Part shown: in pieces, positions 12-28,497 of the stretch | How positions within the stretch are numbered: the first letter of the stretch is position 1 | How the letters are laid out: the number at the start of each line of letters is the position of its first letter | From: Bacilli bacterium | GTDB lineage: Bacteria; Bacillota_I; Bacilli_A; RF39; UBA660 | Direction: 5' to 3' | Length of the DNA stretch: 32,870 bases | NCBI GenBank assembly: GCA_028703035.1 | Contig: JAQVNR010000004.1 | Span: 1 to 32,870 of the forward strand | Position numbers and translations under genes: made by a program | The notes under the pieces: model-generated | What the model saw: only the letters and a program-made list of their open reading frames with translations | Databases searched by the model: none | Told to the model about the DNA's origin: nothing

Positions 12-272
12 TTATTTTGATTCAACTATTAATTTAATAGCGGTTTTTTCAACCCCATCGATTGTAATATCACTAAATGCTGGTATTACAACTAGATTTT
101 TCCCACTTGGAGCTACAAATCCACGTGCTATAGCAATTGCTTTAATTGCTTGGTTAAGTGATCCCGCTCCAATAGTTTGTAGTTCAACAGTACCATCTTG
201 TCTAAACACATTAGCAATAGCTCCTGCTACTTTACTTGGATTACTCTTGCTTGAAACTTTTAATATTTCCAT
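12..272 (-). CDS. spoVS: Stage V sporulation protein S (SpoVS)
   Basis: MEILKVSSKSNPSKVAGAIANVFRQDGTVELQTIGAGSLNQAIKAIAIARG matches SpoVS; start set at M5 of the ORF after GTGGAGGTAGGA RBS. Confidence 0.93.
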   Translation of the reverse strand: MEILKVSSKSNPSKVAGAIANVFRQDGTVELQTIGAGSLNQAIKAIAIARGFVAPSGKNLVVIPAFSDITIDGVEKTAIKLIVESK

Positions 273-506
273 TCCTACCTCCACTAAAATATATGAAAGT
301 AAGATGGATTTAGAATAAAATATAATTTTAATCCTTTATTCTTGAATTGATAATCAAATTTTGTTCAGCTAATATTGTTTTTTAACCCCTTCCTTTATGA
401 CAAAGTTATGACCAAAAAAATATATGATAATAGTATATCTTACATTACTATGAATTTAGCGTTTATAATAATTATCATTAGCTATAAGCATATTGTTATC
501 GTCCAG

Positions 507-4772: not shown

Positions 4773-4802
4773 AAAAATGAGTTTGAACTCATTTTTTAAA
4801 CA
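4768..4802. terminator. Bidirectional intrinsic terminator between gatD and cotY-like gene
   Basis: AAAAAATGAGTT TGA ACTCATTTTTT. Confidence 0.8.
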
Positions 4803-5251
4803 CAATCGACGAAAGTGTCGCTTAAGCATCGAACTGCACAGACGCAATTTAAATCCATTGTAAAGAAGCTGTTTGATGCTACCCAAGGAATATTGCATGT
4901 ACTTTTTTCAGGATTAGGAACTAATACTCTAAAAGTAGCACAATTGCCTTCTAATTTTTCAACTCTGAATACTGATGAACAATCATCTGATGTATCTAAA
5001 CCTGTTATAGTTGAGCACACTTCAACATTATCCTTGCATACTGGCATGCTAAACGGAATACCATTACCACAACAAGTAAATAATTGAATTGGTCTAGTAT
5101 TGAATACTATACAATTAGTACCCCCTCCTAATATCGGTCTATCACATGAATCAGTACAATTGTTTGGACAAGCATTTTCTTGAAGTACATTTATAACTTT
5201 TAATATTTCCGTAATACAATTCCCTTTTCCAGAGCATTCATTATTACACAT
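4796..5251 (-). CDS. Spore coat protein, CotY/CotZ-like, Cys-rich
   Basis: MCNNECSGKGNCITEILKVINVLQENA...GGGTNCIVFNTRPIQLFTCCGNG is typical of the CotY/CotZ/ExsY family. Confidence 0.85.
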   Translation of the reverse strand: MCNNECSGKGNCITEILKVINVLQENACPNNCTDSCDRPILGGGTNCIVFNTRPIQLFTCCGNGIPFSMPVCKDNVEVCSTITGLDTSDDCSSVFRVEKLEGNCATFRVLVPNPEKSTCNIPWVASNSFFTMDLNCVCAVRCLSDTFVDCV

Positions 5252-16446: not shown

Positions 16447-16474
16447 AAAAGATTGAATTCAATTCAATCTTTAA
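16447..16474 (-). terminator. Intrinsic terminator of leuS
   Basis: AAAGATTGAATT GA ATTCAATCTTTT on minus strand. Confidence 0.7.
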
Positions 16475-19289
16475 TAACGATATTAACAATTTTTTTAGGG
16501 ATTATAATAACTTTTATTATTTCGTTATTTTCTAGATGTCTTTTAACATTTTTTTCGGTTGTTGCTAGAGCTTTTATTTCTTCTTCGCTCATATCTTCGG
16601 TAACAGAAATAGTACCTCTTAATTTACCATTTACTTGAACACCGATTGAAACAGATTTACTTATTAGTTTAGCTTCATCATATTTAGGATATTTCTGATT
16701 ATGAATACTAAATTCATTGTTTAGAGTTTCACACCATAGCTCTTCAGTTATATGAGGTGCAAAGGGGGCTAAAATTAAAAGTAATTGTTCTAAATAGTAT
16801 CTAGGTATCCCCTCTTTTTCATGCCTTACAAGCATATTAGTATATTCCATTATTCTAGCAAGTGCTGTATTAAATTGAAAATTAGATGTATCTAATTTAA
16901 CATTTTTAATTGTATAATGGAGACTTTTTTCAAGTTCGGGTATTTCTTTTATTTCGTCTTTATAACTTTTAACAAGTCTTTCAATTTTATTATAAAACTT
17001 ATTTATAGCAATTATTCCATCATCAGTCCAAGGACCACCATCGATATAGTTAAAACCAAACATTAAATAATTTCTTAAAATATCTGAGCCATATGCATCT
17101 ACAATTGGATCCGGTGCAACTGTATTGTCTTTACTTTTACTCATTTTCTCACCATCAGCACCTAATATAATACCTTGATGAACTAAAGATTCAAAAGGCT
17201 CATCAAAATTTAAATAGCCCATATCTCTTAAAGCTTTTGTAAAAAATCTCGCATAAAGAAGGTGCATAACCGCATGTTCAATTCCGCCAACATATTTATC
17301 TACTGGTAATATTTTATTTATAATATCTTTGTTAAATGCTTCTTTATCATTATTTGCATCAGGAAATCTTAAAAAGTACCATGATGAGCAGACGAATGTA
17401 TCAAGAGTATCACATTCTCTTTTAGCAACAGAACCACATACTGGGCATTTAACATTTATAAATTCTTTTGATTTTTTTAGAGGACTTTCACCATCAGGAG
17501 TAAACTCTGCTTCTCTTGGCAGAAGTACTGGAAGATCAGCATCAGGTACTGGAACCATCCCACATTTATCACAATAAATAATTGGAATTGGTGCTCCCCA
17601 GTATCTTTGTCTAGATACTAACCAGTCTCTTAGTTTATAATTAATTGCTCTTTCCCCAGTTTTGTTTTTTTCTAAATATTTAGTTATTTTCTCTATTGCC
17701 TCTTCTTCATTAAGCCCATTGATAATATCTGAATTAATATGTTTACCATCACCTATATAGGCTTTTTCTTCTTTAAATTCGAAAGCTGTTTGATGTAGTT
17801 CATCTTTTATTTCATTTAAAATTTTTGACTCACTTACCCACTGTACTTTAAATTTGTTTTCTTCTTCGATATCTAAATCTTGATCTATTTTTGCCTCATC
17901 TATAAGTTCAAAATAAACTAAATCACATTCTATATTATAAGCTTTTTCTTTATTATAAGCATAATAATGGTGATTAATAGGAAAAGCTTGATGTAAAAAT
18001 TTTAAATTAGTATAGCCTGTTTCTTCTATTACTTCTCTAAGAGCACATTCTAAAGCTGTTTCATTTTCTTTAATTGTTCCCCCAATAAATAATCTGCCAC
18101 CTAAATTGCCCCAATTAATTGTTAAGTATTTATTGGTTTTAGGATTATAAACAACTGCTACAATACTTTTTTTAGTTGTCTCATTTTCTCTTGCATCACC
18201 AGTTACCTTTTGAACAACAGGAATAATTTCTAAATTAAATTTTTTAGCTAATTCAAAATCTCGCATGTCATGAGCTGGAACGGCCATAATTGCTCCAGTT
18301 CCATATGTTGCTAGAACGTAATCTGCTATCCAGATTGGAATTTTTTTATTATTGATTGGGTTTATAGCATAACTTCCAGTAAAAACTCCAGTTTTTTCAC
18401 GTGCGGTACTTGTTCGATCTATTTCGCTTTGAGTTGCAGCAATTTTTTGATAATTTAGGACTTCTTTTCTTTGTTCTTTAGTTGTAATTAAGTCAACTAA
18501 ATCATGTTCTGGTGCAAGCACGCAGTAGGTAGCCCCATAAAGTGTATCTGGTCTTGTAGTAAAGACTTTAAATAATTTATCAGTACCATCAATCTTAAAA
18601 GTAATATAAGCACCCTTACTTTTACCAATCCAGTTTCTTTGCAAAGTTTTAGTTCGCTCTGGCCAGTCTAATTTATCTAAATCTGCAAGTAGTTCTTCAG
18701 CATAGTCAGTAATTTTAAAGAACCACTGACTCATTTTTTTTCTAACTACAACTGATGAGCATCTTTCACACTCGCCACTTACAACTTGCTCATTAGCTAG
18801 AACTGTATTACAAGATGGACACCAGTTAACTGGCGCTAATTTTTTATAAGCTAGACCTTTTTTATAAAATTCTAAAAATAACCACTGTGTCCATTTATAA
18901 TAATTAGGATTAGATGTATCTATTTCAAAATCCCAGTCATAAGTCGCGCCAATATTTTTAAGCTGGTGCTTCATCACTCTAATATTTTGCTGAGTTGACT
19001 TTTCTGGATGAATACCAGTTGTAATTGCATAATTTTCAGCCGGAAGTCCAAAAGCATCAAATCCCATTGGATGAAACACATTATATCCTTCCATCCTCTT
19101 TAATCTTGCCCAAGTATCAGCAACACCATAATTCCACCAATGTCCCATATGTAGTTTAGCACCTGATGGATAAGAAAACATTTCTAAACAGTAAAGCTTT
19201 TTTCCTTCTGCTTCTCTATCAAACTTATATATTTTTTCTTTTTCCCATTTATCTCGCCATTTTTTTTCAATTTTATTTATATTTTCCAT
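16464..19289 (-). CDS. leuS: Leucyl-tRNA synthetase with internal Nudix domain
   Basis: FSYPSGAKLHMGHWWNY, editing motifs TTRPDTLYGA and GTGAIMAVPAHDMRDFELA, KMSKS; Nudix box GTIKENETALECALREVIEETGY. Confidence 0.96.
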   Translation of the reverse strand: MENINKIEKKWRDKWEKEKIYKFDREAEGKKLYCLEMFSYPSGAKLHMGHWWNYGVADTWARLKRMEGYNVFHPMGFDAFGLPAENYAITTGIHPEKSTQQNIRVMKHQLKNIGATYDWDFEIDTSNPNYYKWTQWLFLEFYKKGLAYKKLAPVNWCPSCNTVLANEQVVSGECERCSSVVVRKKMSQWFFKITDYAEELLADLDKLDWPERTKTLQRNWIGKSKGAYITFKIDGTDKLFKVFTTRPDTLYGATYCVLAPEHDLVDLITTKEQRKEVLNYQKIAATQSEIDRTSTAREKTGVFTGSYAINPINNKKIPIWIADYVLATYGTGAIMAVPAHDMRDFELAKKFNLEIIPVVQKVTGDARENETTKKSIVAVVYNPKTNKYLTINWGNLGGRLFIGGTIKENETALECALREVIEETGYTNLKFLHQAFPINHHYYAYNKEKAYNIECDLVYFELIDEAKIDQDLDIEEENKFKVQWVSESKILNEIKDELHQTAFEFKEEKAYIGDGKHINSDIINGLNEEEAIEKITKYLEKNKTGERAINYKLRDWLVSRQRYWGAPIPIIYCDKCGMVPVPDADLPVLLPREAEFTPDGESPLKKSKEFINVKCPVCGSVAKRECDTLDTFVCSSWYFLRFPDANNDKEAFNKDIINKILPVDKYVGGIEHAVMHLLYARFFTKALRDMGYLNFDEPFESLVHQGIILGADGEKMSKSKDNTVAPDPIVDAYGSDILRNYLMFGFNYIDGGPWTDDGIIAINKFYNKIERLVKSYKDEIKEIPELEKSLHYTIKNVKLDTSNFQFNTALARIMEYTNMLVRHEKEGIPRYYLEQLLLILAPFAPHITEELWCETLNNEFSIHNQKYPKYDEAKLISKSVSIGVQVNGKLRGTISVTEDMSEEEIKALATTEKNVKRHLENNEIIKVIIIPKKIVNIVIKD

Positions 19290-22570: not shown

Positions 22571-23173
22571 TTGTCAAGATATACAGGACCAATTTATCGT
22601 AAAAGTCGTCGACTTGGTTTTAGTACTCTAGAAAATGGAAAAGAATTAAGTAGAAAACCATATCCTCCAGGAATTCATGGAACAAGCAGACGTAAAAAAA
22701 CAAGCGAATATGGAATTCAATTACAAGAAAAACAAAAATTAAGATTCATGTATGGACTTACAGAAAAACAATTTGCCCGTACTTTTGAAAAAGCAACTAA
22801 GATGCAAGGAATTACTGGTGAAAATTTATTTAAACTACTTGAAAGTAGACTTGATAATGTTGTCTATCGTATGGGACTAGCTAGCACAAGACGTGCTGCT
22901 AGACAAATTGTTAACCATGGTCACATTTTAGTTAATGGATCAAGTGTTGATATCCCATCTTATACAGTTAAACCAGAATCAATAATTTCTGTTAAAGAAA
23001 AATCTTTAAACCATCCGGCTATTAAACAATCTCTAGAGGCAACTTTAGCAAGACCAGCTTATGTAAATTTCGATGTTAAAAAGATGAGCGGTACATTTAT
23101 AAGATTACCTGAAAGATCGGAACTTAATGCTGATATTAATGAATCGTTAGTAGTAGAATACTATAACAGATAG
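22571..23173 (+). CDS. rpsD: 30S ribosomal protein S4 (TTG start)
   Basis: [18 protein letters not shown]...[43 protein letters not shown]. Confidence 0.97.
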
Positions 23174-23264: not shown

Positions 23265-26200
23265 TTATTTAACTTTTTCTATTTCAATAAAAACTTTGTG
23301 ATTATTTATATCTATTGTTTGAATTAGGTCTTCTTTAAAATTAATGCTTAACCCTAAAGTTTCATCTTTAATATATTCTTCAAATTTATTAATCGTTTCT
23401 ATTATTTTTTCACTTGCATTATAATAAATATGGATGCGATCTACTAAATTTAATTTTAGTTCTTTACGAATATTTTGGATTTTACTAACTAACTCTCTAG
23501 CTAAACCTTCTAACAATAATTCTTCAGTTAATGTGGTATTTAAAATTACAAAGTTATTAGCACCCATTCCGACATTTAAACCTTCTTTGGAAGAAATTCT
23601 TATTTCAATCATATCTTCTGAAACTAAAATTTCTTCTTCATCTAAGTTTAATTTTATTTTTTTTCCAGATTGAAGCTTAGTTATTTCATTATCTGTTAAA
23701 TTCTCTAAAAGCATTGCAAAAGTCTTTATTTTAGAACCAAATATTTTGCCTACTTCTTTATAGTTAGGTTTAACTGATAAATTCATATAATTATTTAAAT
23801 TATCAACATAAGTAATTTTTTTAACATTTAACTCTTCTTTTATTAGTTCATCTAATTCGGCAATTATATTTTTGTTTTTTCCATCAAGTAGTATTTCTGA
23901 AAGAGGCTGGCGGACCTTTATTTTAGTTTCTTCTCTAACGTTTCTACCAATACTTATTAAACTTCTTACTAAATCCATTTTAGTTTCTAATGGCTTGTTA
24001 ATTAAGTTTTCATCATATTTAGGAAAATCTGTTAAATGTACTGACTCCTTACCAGTTAACTTTCGATAAATTTCTTCGGTTATAAAAGGAGAAATTGGAG
24101 CGATTAGTTTACATAATCCTATCAGGGTTTCATAAGTAGTTAAGTAAACTGACTGTTTAGAATTATTCAAAGTACTTCCCCAAAAACGATCTCTATTTCT
24201 TCTAATATACCAATTAGATAAATCTTCTGATACAAAATCTGTTGCAAACTTTACTACTTTATGAAGATCATATGCCTCATAAGCATCAGTTACATTCTTA
24301 ATTAGGGTGTTATATTTTGATAGTAACCATCTATCAATATCTTCCCGTATTTTTACTGGAACATCACATTTATCAATATCAATATTATCAATATTTGCAT
24401 ACATTGAGAAAAATGAATAAGTGTTTTTTAGGGGATTAAAGAATTTAGAATAAACTTCTTTTAATCCTTCATAATCAAACTTAAGTGGCATCCAAACAGG
24501 TGATGCATAAAGCAAATAAAATCTAACTACATCTGCTCCATACTCTTCCATTAGAGCAAAAGGTTCAATAATATTGCCTTTACTTTTACTCATTTTCTTA
24601 CCTTCAGAATCAAGCAACAAATCATTTACTAATACATTTTTATATGGAGCTTTACCAGTAATAAAGGTTGATATTAATATCAGTGTGTAAAACCAGCCTC
24701 TTGTTTGATCAATTCCTTCACAAATAAAGTCCGCTGGAAACTGAGTTGCAAAAACTTCTTTATTTTCAAAAGGATAATGGTACTGGGCAAAAGGCATTGA
24801 CCCAGAATCAAACCAACAATCAATTACTTCTGGAACTCTTTTCATTTCTTTAGAACATTTAGGACATTTTAATTTTACTTCATCAATATTTGGCCTATGA
24901 AGTGAAATAGCTTTATCAATTTTAATAGTAGCTTTTTTGATAAGCTCATCTTTTGAGCCTATCATCTCTTCATGACCACAAACACATCTCCATAAAGGAA
25001 GTGGTGTCCCCCAATATCTATTTCGAGATATTGCCCAATCATTCATATTTTCAAGCCAGTTACCAAAACGTTTTTCTCCAACATGAGCAGGAAACCAATT
25101 AACTTTATTATTCTCAGCAATAACCTTATCTTTAATTTTAGTTACTTCTAAATAATAACTAGGTTTAGAATAATATATAAGTGGACTATGACATCTCCAG
25201 CAGTGCGGATAATTATGATTTATTCTTTGCTTTTTAAATAATTTGTCATTTTCTCTTAAATATTTAATTATTTCAATATCTGCATCAAAAACAAGTAAAT
25301 CCTTCCAAGGCCCTTCAGTATATTTTCCAGCCTCATCAACTGGGTTAATAATTGGTAAATTATATTTTCTACCAACTTCATAGTCATCTTGCCCAAAAGC
25401 TGGAGCCATATGCACAATACCAGTCCCGTCTTCCATACTCACGAAAGTAGCATTAGTTACATAAAAAGCTTTTTTAGCTGGATTTATAAATGGAAGAAGT
25501 TGCTGATATTCTTCATACTCTAAATCTTTTCCTAAATAGGTTTCTATTACTTCTGCATGTCCTATTACATTACTTACTAGTTTTTTAGCAACTATAAAAT
25601 TATAGTCACCAGACTTTACCTTAACATATTCTTCTTTGGGATTTACACAAAGGGCAACATTTGCAAGAAGAGTCCAAGGGGTAGTTGTCCAAACTAAAAA
25701 GTAAGCATCTAATTTCTTCGATTTAAAAGGCACTGTTACTGTCTCAACAGTTACATCTTTGTATCCTTGAGCAACTTCATGGCTAGCAAGCCCTGTTCCA
25801 CATCTTGGACAATATGGAAGTATTTTATGCCCTTCATAAAACAAACCTTCATCAAAAAACTTCTTTAAAATCCACCACTCGGTTTCTATATAATTATCAT
25901 GATAAGTTAGATAAGGATTTTTTAAATCAATAAATTGTCCCATTTTAGTTGTTAATTTAGCAAACAAATCTTCATTACGCATCACACTTTCACGACACTT
26001 TTTATTAAATTTAGCAATACCATATTTCTCGATATCATTTTTCGAAGTAAAGCCAAGTTCTTTTTCTACTTCCAGTTCAACTGGAAGACCATGAGTATCC
26101 CAACCAATCTTACGTAAAACTTTATAGCCTTTCATTGTTTTATATTTACAAAAAGAATCTTTTAATAACTTTGCCAGCATATGATGAAGCCCAGGGTATC

Positions 26201-26351: not shown

Positions 26352-26369
26352 ATATTCCTCCTATAAATT

Positions 26370-26580
26370 AAAAAAATCATAAACTAAAGGACGAGCAAAT
26401 GCCCGTGGTACCACCTTAATTCATGACTATCATGCTCTTAAACTTCATAACGGAAAGTAACCGATTTTTTAAAAAAATGCATCAGATTAGTGATCTATTA
26501 ATAAATATTATACTTACTTTCACCAAATGTAAACTCTCTTTAATAATTTTTTATTAGCCGGCTAATCTTCAAACTGCTTA
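26370..26580 (-). ncRNA. T-box riboswitch, Ile specific (specifier read as AUC)
   Basis: AAGGTGGTACCACGGG...CTCGTCCTTT; AGAGAG...TTTGGTGAAAGTAAGTATAATA; AUAG-AUC-ACU. Confidence 0.9.
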
Positions 26581-26586
26581 TAAAGA

Positions 26587-26615
26587 ATTATATGCAATTA
26601 TTGCTACTTTGTCAA
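26587..26615 (-). promoter_or_regulatory. Consensus SigA promoter TTGACA-N17-TATAAT for ileS
   Basis: Direct reading, minus strand. Confidence 0.88.
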
Positions 26616-26643: not shown

Positions 26644-26850
26644 TTAACGAACTTCAATTAAATTACTAATTTCTTTTATATTAGTTAAAAACTCTAATAT
26701 ATCAAAAGCTATAATATCTATATTATTAAAATACTTATAAAGTTTTATTGCGTCAATAACATCGACGTGAATTTTTGGTGCGAAAAATATTGAAAAAGTA
26801 TCCTCTTTAACTTTTTGTTTATATTCTGTTAAGTGTCTTTTAATAGGAAT
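26644..26850 (-). pseudogene. C-terminal remnant resembling AlwI-type restriction endonuclease
   Basis: IPIKRHLTEYKQKVKEDTFSIFFAPKIHVDVIDAIKLYKYFNNIDIIAFDILEFLTNIKEISNLIEVR* with stop upstream and no start. Confidence 0.4.
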
Positions 26851-27011
26851 AATTTAATTATTAATTGATCACATATGTACACTACTTATTTCTATTTTCC
26901 TTTAAAATAATTAAAAAAAAAGCAGCTTTCAGTAAAACATATTTGCTTCTTATATTTAAAATTATAATTGTTTGTTTCTGTTTTAAGTTTTAATATAATA
27001 AATACTTGTAA

Positions 27012-27632
27012 TTAATTTTTTAAGTTTGCAATTGAGACTACTAATACTCCATCTGATCTTTGATAAGAATTTTGTCCCCCATATAGAACCATTAAAAATG
27101 ATGGTTTTCCTTTTATATCAGTATTAATTTTGTTTTTTAATTGCAATAGATTTGTAGCTGCTTCATCAACTTTTTCTTCACCAAGTTTTATTTCTACCGC
27201 GCCCCATCTACCATCATTTAATTCTAGTATCGCATCTATTTCATAACCTTTTTCTTCTCGATAATTAAATATATTACCATCAATACTATCTATATAAATT
27301 CTTAAATCTCGCAAAGCTAAAGCTTCAAATAGAAAACCAAAATAATTAAAATCAGTTAAAATTTTTGCACTTGTTAATCTTAAAGAGGAACAAACCAAGG
27401 AAGTATCAACCAATAATTTTTTATCACTTTTTCTAAGAGCTGTTTTACTTCTAATTGAAGTAGGCCAAGAAGGAATATTTTCAATTATAAATAATTTTTC
27501 TAAAGTGATTTTATAATCTCTAAAGGTATTACTACTAATTTCAATTCCTTCATTGATCATATCTTCCATTATTGTTACATTACTTGCATAAGTTGCAATA
27601 TTTCTTGAATATGATCTTAGAAGAGCATTCAA
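27012..27632 (-). pseudogene. C-terminal fragment of DUF4143-type ATP-binding protein
   Basis: IENIPSWPTSIRSKTALRKSDKKLLVDTSLV...FGFLFEALALRDLRIY...GYEIDAILELNDGRWGAVEIKLG; no P-loop half. Confidence 0.75.
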
Positions 27633-27634
27633 AT

Positions 27635-27674
27635 AAAAACAGCAATATTTAATAAAACATAACTGCTGGTTTTA
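27635..27674 (-). terminator. Intrinsic terminator with truB stop codon inside the hairpin
   Basis: AAAACCAGCA...TGCTGTTTTT on minus strand. Confidence 0.65.
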
Positions 27675-28497
27675 TTTTCTGAGGATCTTTATCATATTTT
27701 TTATAAAGGGCTATTTCTTTATCTCTTACTACAAATAAAATATAATTATCTATTTCTCTATCTAATATCTGACCGTTTTTTACTTTATATAGCATTTTTG
27801 GATCTATTTCTTCTTTTGGATAATCTTTTAATATTTCTATTACATTATAGAAGTAATGTTTATTATATAAAACATCATCTAAGGAAGATGCATTATCTAT
27901 TTTAAAATTACCCAAAGAAGTTCTTCTAAGTTCAGTAAGTGTTGCAACTGTTCCAAGTGATGCACCAATATCTCTTACTAAACCACGAATATAAGTTCCT
28001 TTAGATACTTTAGTTTTAATTTTAATAATATCTTTGTCAATAGATAAAAGTTTTAAATCATATATAGTAACGTCTCTTTTAGGGAGCTCTACTTCTTCAT
28101 TGCATCTAGCATATTCATATAATTTTTTACCCATAACTTTGACTGCTGAGTATATAGGAACTTCTTGACTATAGGTTTTAATATATGATTTTAATGTTTT
28201 CTTGATTTCTGTTTCTTTAATATTTACTTTTTCTTCGATTAATATATTGCCTGTAATATCTAAAGTATCAGTTAAAACTCCTAATTTAAAAGTAGCTATA
28301 TATTCTTTATCTTGATTAGTTAATATATTAGATAGTTTAGTTGCTCTACCAATTAAACATACTAAAACGCCAGTTGCCATTGGATCTAGTGTGCCAGTAT
28401 GACCTATTTCTTTTGTTTCTAATATCTGATTTAATCTATTAACTACATCTCTGCTAGTAATACCAGCTGGTTTATCAATAACTATCGCACCATTCAT
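27649..28497 (-). CDS. truB: tRNA pseudouridine(55) synthase
   Basis: GAIVIDKPAGITSRDVVNRL, GHTGTLDPMATGVL. Confidence 0.97.
   Translation of the reverse strand: MNGAIVIDKPAGITSRDVVNRLNQILETKEIGHTGTLDPMATGVLVCLIGRATKLSNILTNQDKEYIATFKLGVLTDTLDITGNILIEEKVNIKETEIKKTLKSYIKTYSQEVPIYSAVKVMGKKLYEYARCNEEVELPKRDVTIYDLKLLSIDKDIIKIKTKVSKGTYIRGLVRDIGASLGTVATLTELRRTSLGNFKIDNASSLDDVLYNKHYFYNVIEILKDYPKEEIDPKMLYKVKNGQILDREIDNYILFVVRDKEIALYKKYDKDPQKIKPAVMFY

Follow-up and report, generated by a model that had tools for sequence, protein, structure and literature searches.

A type 2 isoleucyl-tRNA synthetase with GLHH in place of HIGH in an uncultured Bacilli bacterium, and in-place exchange of ileS coding sequences behind a retained T-box leader

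The ileS gene of an uncultured Bacilli bacterium (GTDB lineage Bacillota_I; Bacilli_A; RF39; UBA660) encodes a type 2 isoleucyl-tRNA synthetase (IleRS2) in which the class I signature HIGH is replaced by GLHH. The gene lies in the window, by which is meant the whole stretch of 32,870 nucleotides that was analysed (assembly GCA_028703035.1, contig JAQVNR010000004.1). The whole account, namely that this is the sole housekeeping IleRS of the organism, that it is of the GXHH kind and predicted to be mupirocin-resistant, and that ileS has been exchanged in place behind a kept T-box, is given a probability of about 0.87. The link between GXHH in IleRS2 and mupirocin hyper-resistance has been known since 2023 (PMC10485003), and the enzyme of the window is a further case. 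What is added here is the interchange of sensitive-type and predicted hyper-resistant-type coding sequences behind a kept T-box; no description of such in-place exchange of IleRS1 and IleRS2 was found in the literature.

The features of the locus are collected in Table 1. GLHH had been reported at this site in a first-pass annotation made from the letters alone, and this is exact: the minus-strand codons gct aat gga tac cct GGG CTT CAT CAT atg give ATANGYPGLHHMLAKLLKD in a single open frame. The other motifs are in place, including GWDTHGLPVELEVEKELG, GWDTHGLPVE, KMSKS and the paired cysteines CPRC and CWRC, and the translated editing domain contains WTTTPWT, GTGIVHMAP and GQDDY.

Table 1. Features of the ileS locus, in window coordinates
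Feature	Position	Strand	Basis or remark
ileS, type 2 isoleucyl-tRNA synthetase, 1028 aa	23265..26351	-	ATG start, stop included
Non-canonical class I signature G54-L55-H56-H57 replacing HIGH	26181..26192	-	Codons, alignment, AlphaFold2 model
GWDTHGLP, residues 83-90, conserved catalytic-domain motif	26082..26105	-	Translation and alignment
CP1 editing domain, about residues 196-383	25203..25766	-	Match to isolated IleRS editing domain 1wk8
KMSKS motif, residues 586-590	24582..24596	-	Translation and alignment
Ribosome-binding site AGGAGG	26357..26362	-	Sequence
ileS T-box leader, aligned to model positions 1-219	26384..26582	-	RF00230
Intrinsic terminator stem-loop of T-box	26391..26406	-	Sequence
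T-box antiterminator sequence AAGGTGGTACCACG	26404..26417	-	Sequence and RF00230 alignment
Predicted AUC (Ile) specifier, immediately 5' of the stem I strand CUAAUC	26492..26494	-	Position in alignment
Promoter TTGACA-17-TATAAT, sigma-70-type, 12/12	26587..26615	-	Kept in sister species
rpsD, downstream neighbour marking the locus in same-genus IleRS1 or IleRS2 genomes	22571..23173	+	Gene order
truB, upstream neighbour marking the locus	27649..28497	-	Gene order

The assignment to type 2, implied in the first-pass annotation, was borne out by profile, domain and structure matches and by a tree in which the protein groups with IleRS2. The protein scored 942.4 bits against the ileS equivalog TIGR00392 (cut-off 621.4) and matched PF00133 (class I core), PF08264 (anticodon domain) and, over residues 835-1027, PF19302 (DUF5915), the type 2 C-terminal domain. 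The IleRS1 relatives end in CxRC motifs; the window protein is without C-terminal zinc-binding cysteines, and the IleRS1 combination of HXGH with a C-terminal zinc domain is absent from it. Its equivalog match, C-terminal domain, tree placement, motif and housekeeping setting are those of a G/AXHH type 2 IleRS. The closest solved structures by sequence are the set from Priestia megaterium IleRS2 (PDB 8c8u, 8c8v and 8c8w), which shares the full-length fold and domains at 42% identity; the natural motif of that enzyme is HVGH and its GVHH form is a laboratory mutant. The structure was also modelled with AlphaFold2, at moderate quality (mean pLDDT 78.5, pTM 0.66). The best PDB matches of this model were P. 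megaterium IleRS2, with TM-scores of 0.82-0.85 compared with 0.63-0.67 for IleRS1 structures, and its helix alpha-1 (55-73) has GLHH at the tip. As confidence was low in parts around the active site, the model backs the fold and not the side-chain geometry. The plasmid-encoded MupA and MupB of Staphylococcus are also type 2, and the window protein is 42% identical to MupA; unlike it, MupA has HAGH and is plasmid-borne. The NCBIfam models for MupA and MupB gave 915.7 and 898.8 bits, below their cut-off of 1900, and the protein belongs to neither family.

T-box control of ileS had been proposed as well, and the leader agrees with it. The match to RF00230 was 83.6 bits (E 9.2e-19), short of the gathering score of 93, and the orthologous leaders of the same genus scored 98-124 bits, above the gathering score. 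Antiterminator, terminator and a stem I with specifier are all present upstream of this aminoacyl-tRNA synthetase gene, and the promoter is perfect. AUC is the likely specifier, as assigned by its position. Thermodynamic folding did not separate the leader from its shuffles (z 0.12).

In a published survey, G/AXHH was found in 86 of 163 IleRS2 sequences (Brkic et al. 2023, PMC10485003). The IleRS2 of Deinococcus radiodurans, with a natural ALHH, has a mupirocin Ki of 6.6 mM, which falls to 8.1 uM in its HVGH mutant (PMC10485003, Table 1), and introduction of GVHH increases the Ki about 200-fold for the IleRS2 of Thermus thermophilus and about 430-fold for that of P. megaterium (PMC10485003). 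A Ki of about 10 mM was reported for the IleRS2 of Streptomyces griseus (PMC4861432). IleRS1 does not tolerate the G/AXHH motif and cannot work with it (PMC10485003). The statement of the first-pass annotation that type 2 enzymes of the GXHH kind are extremely resistant to mupirocin is correct; their Ki values lie in the mM range (PMC10485003). The window enzyme shares with the G/AXHH enzymes of S. griseus and D. radiodurans the type, the exchange of signature positions 1 and 3, KMSKS and the housekeeping role; it differs from them in belonging to uncultured Bacilli and in the T-box leader in front of its gene. By homology it is predicted to be hyper-resistant. Going by the homologues, the shifted helix tip of IleRS2 would allow a histidine at the third motif position without catalytic loss, and this histidine would clash with bound mupirocin and raise the Ki up to the mM range. 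Of the earlier description of a hyper-resistant, T-box-regulated housekeeping enzyme, the type, the sole IleRS found in the 91%-complete genome and the T-box stand as described, and the resistance itself stands as a prediction from homologues. In the producer of the mupirocin-related thiomarinol, Pseudoalteromonas sp. SANK 73390, the IleRS on plasmid pTML1 (L220) carries HHGH, within the unusual sequence FATGKPHHGH, and not GXHH.

A tree of IleRS sequences was computed without the two motif columns. IleRS1 was split off from IleRS2 (SH-aLRT 100), and the main IleRS2 clade of the family was monophyletic (99). Its sister (100) was the IleRS2 of Acetoanaerobium noterae (L173), which has PGIHH, is 55% identical to the window protein and has its own T-box leader upstream; A. 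noterae belongs to Clostridia, unlike the organism of the window. MupA and the IleRS2 of Sutcliffiella and Paenibacillus, all with HXGH, formed another clade. A search of genome contigs with the window protein gave at least 80 loci, and as those listed were all close relatives (64-87% identity) the Clostridia side of the tree consists of one record. Most simply, the family would have acquired a Clostridia-type IleRS2 that already had GXHH, with outgroup sampling thin for the donor and the direction. The motif was probably inherited together with the acquired gene, since the Clostridia sister enzyme has GXHH too, and for this reason GXHH is in itself no sign that mupirocin was the selecting agent.

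The main clade comprised 149 distinct sequences, nearly all from the family of the window and one from Acetoanaerobium. GLHH was present in 90 of them, GIHH in 45, GVHH in 12 and HIGH in one, and in one the site was missing. GXHH is therefore common to this IleRS2 clade and not peculiar to the window genome, and its presence in 147 of 149 sequences shows that GLHH is not due to chance. IleRS matches came from 110 of the 116 family genomes with a completeness of 85% or more: 90 to the main IleRS2 clade, three only to a second, remote IleRS2 clade (34-36% identity) and 17 only to IleRS1, these types being set by identity and frame length and confirmed by sequence where loci were fetched. A fourth genome with the second clade, G109, has both IleRS2 clades. 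Of 232 family genomes, almost all with a completeness of 93% or more, 169 contained the G/AXHH pattern. This count is a minimum, since the pattern does not catch the ANA-PGIHH of an entire subclade. A pattern search for the canonical motif in an IleRS2 context matched none of 386 family genomes. Family genomes matching neither DNA pattern were considered as possible carriers of a new motif; the members fetched had ANA-PGIHH with GLDTHGLP or belonged to the second IleRS2 clade. No IleRS1 with GXHH was seen among the sequences examined, and no virus-borne relative in the viral contigs searched. In the rest of the class IleRS2 is rare: two of about 238 genomes sampled beyond the family had it, each with HIGH. 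The one HIGH sequence of the main clade (MAG Lapin-018 bin75; L115, 425-436) also has KMHKS and is nested inside the GXHH clade; it is probably a natural reversion, carried on a single 3.2-kb MAG contig.

These distributions bear on the reading that GXHH is simply the inherited state of an acquired IleRS2, without a current role in resistance, kept as the rest of the active site has become adapted to it. We would put this slightly below even odds. The motif is nearly invariant across a deep clade and is shared with the Clostridia sister, and some relatives make do with IleRS1 (derived most simply from IleRS2 in the genus of the window, as described below), as if resistance were dispensable. 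This reading is, however, compatible with resistance as a biochemical property, and the HIGH sequence in the same scaffold indicates that GXHH is not strictly locked in.

The second signature also varies in the family. KMHKS replaces KMSKS in 66 of the 149 clade sequences, with at least seven changes on the tree, and in 64 of these 66 both class I signatures are altered; the window has KMSKS. No description of KMHKS was found in the literature. The second IleRS2 clade (G087, locus L194; G054, L195; G109, L170; G082, L171) showed the motifs KIHH, HVGH and GIHH together with KFSKS or KFSKT, of which KIHH fits neither HXGH nor G/AXHH. Two genomes, G100 (C3/C17) and G109 (C63/C15), have two IleRS2 pieces each, which may be contamination or true second copies.

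Within the genus of the window, both enzyme types occur: five genomes have IleRS2 (G000, G001, G002, G003 and G006) and three have IleRS1 (G004, G005 and G007). Whichever type is present, ileS and rpsD face each other with at most one additional gene between them, and on the other side of ileS lie truB, rbfA, infB and nusA where the contigs reach far enough. The T-box leaders of the IleRS1 trio were 82-84% identical to that of the IleRS2 genome G001, whose leader shared 72-77% identity with those of its IleRS2 congeners. This similarity extends to the region of the start codon and ends at the coding sequence. The tree of promoter and leader united G001 with the IleRS1 trio (98/99), as did the InfB tree (99/97), whereas the G001 enzyme joined the IleRS2 of its congeners (100/100). 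The leader thus follows the organism tree and not the enzyme type, and since leader and InfB trees agree while the enzyme trees differ, the coding sequence was exchanged and the leader was kept. Most simply, the ancestor of the trio would have gone over from IleRS2 to IleRS1. The space between truB and ileS also holds remnants of other genes in the window, one of a DUF4143 protein gene (27012-27632, minus strand; a 424-codon frame in G003, L158) and one of a 195-codon frame (about 26647-26853, minus strand). Longer versions of both were present in G003, together with further genes between truB and ileS.

In other genera of the family, either type of ileS is found behind sepF and divIVA, in some cases with one to a few genes between (gene names at these loci were assigned by reading the sequences). 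This locus holds IleRS1 in eight genomes (G013, G023, G050, G053, G058, G065, G084 and G112), main-clade IleRS2 in six (G008, G010, G012, G016, G020 and G022) and second-clade IleRS2 in one (G082). Across 27 genomes, T-box identity rose with that of InfB (r 0.61, Mantel p 0.0002; a weaker 0.31 with within-genus pairs removed), and its correlation with enzyme type was slight (r 0.10, p 0.055). Enzyme type required 10 changes on the InfB tree, about as often as with shuffled labels; as the genomes were picked to include both types, this number indicates recurrence and not a rate. The IleRS1 and IleRS2 trees each track InfB (r 0.82 and 0.78), a sign of exchange mostly within the family. It seems fairly probable that ileS behaves in this family as an interchangeable cassette, in which IleRS1, GXHH IleRS2 and the remote IleRS2 swap at the same locus while promoter and T-box stay and the T-box buffers the change. 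The T-box would sense the charging of tRNA-Ile and set the amount of the enzyme encoded downstream, whatever its type, and in this way may ease enzyme swaps. This resembles in situ xenologous gene displacement, in which a gene gives way at its own locus to a homologue with a different ancestry; it differs from the general case in that the coding sequence alone was changed, promoter and T-box were kept, and the event recurred in one family.

The patchy distribution of types might also reflect an ancestor with two genes followed by differential loss instead of repeated exchange, which would fit the monophyly of the family IleRS1 and the tracking of InfB by both enzyme trees. This is unlikely, as IleRS1 and IleRS2 share one site and one T-box, which is hardly expected from two coexisting genes, the trio IleRS1 groups with G099 (95/99) and not with G069 of a neighbouring genus, and none of the 110 family genomes with a match had IleRS1 together with IleRS2. 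That the mosaic is a binning or assembly artefact is very improbable. The family records inspected are MAGs or uncultured bins, the genomes searched vary in completeness, and contamination is possible in G109 and G100 with their two pieces; against this, three independent genomes have IleRS1 and rpsD on one contig, two of these contigs also carry truB, rbfA, infB and nusA, with genes about 62-81% identical to those of the window, and the leader trees agree with InfB.

The first-pass annotation had further regarded the enzyme as free of decay and without a second ileS nearby, and both statements were confirmed. In a 20-sequence alignment P53, G54, H56 and H57 were invariant, as were the other motifs of the window IleRS. 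The dN/dS of the window gene against three sister genes was 0.10, 0.12 and 0.14, so purifying selection on ileS is strong. The same motif occurs in independently assembled genomes of sister species (L008-L010), and together with the invariant residues and the low dN/dS this excludes a sequencing slip or decay. Searches with the window protein and TIGR00392 gave a single match over the cut-off in the whole genome, which is 91.5% complete; a second ileS could sit on missing sequence, and the evidence that the window ileS is the only IleRS of the organism is strong but not final. Candidates for a second IleRS proved to be ValRS (C43; PRK13208, 964 bits), a MetRS-like protein (C50) and LeuRS (C52), an IHXGH pattern match in the same genome was ValRS, and the other class I synthetase gene of the window (16464-19289, minus strand), of the same superfamily, is LeuRS. 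That the GLHH enzyme has decayed or been neofunctionalised while another enzyme charges the tRNA, as might be suspected from HIGH being among the most conserved class I motifs with a catalytic first histidine (PMC10485003), deserves next to no credence, given that no further IleRS was found in the genome, that dN/dS is about 0.1 with other motifs invariant, and that GXHH enzymes are active in published assays (PMC10485003).

Other genes of the window were noted. In the 941-aa LeuRS the editing domain is followed at once by a NUDIX domain (PF00293, residues 375-492), and the homologue from the same genus in L160 is of almost equal length; a literature search found no description of a LeuRS-NUDIX fusion. 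Genes for SpoVS (12-284, minus strand) and a CotZ-like spore coat protein (4796-5251, minus strand) are present in this assembly of 1.29 Mb.

Annotation with the NCBIfam MupA and MupB models would miss intrinsic hyper-resistance of the GXHH kind. The family offers a natural comparison set, in which close species have, at the same locus and behind the same leader, either an enzyme with a predicted mM Ki or a sensitive-type IleRS1, and to which the more distant L115 adds an IleRS2 that has probably gone back to HIGH. This set makes both the cost of hyper-resistance and the driver of the turnover of ileS testable.
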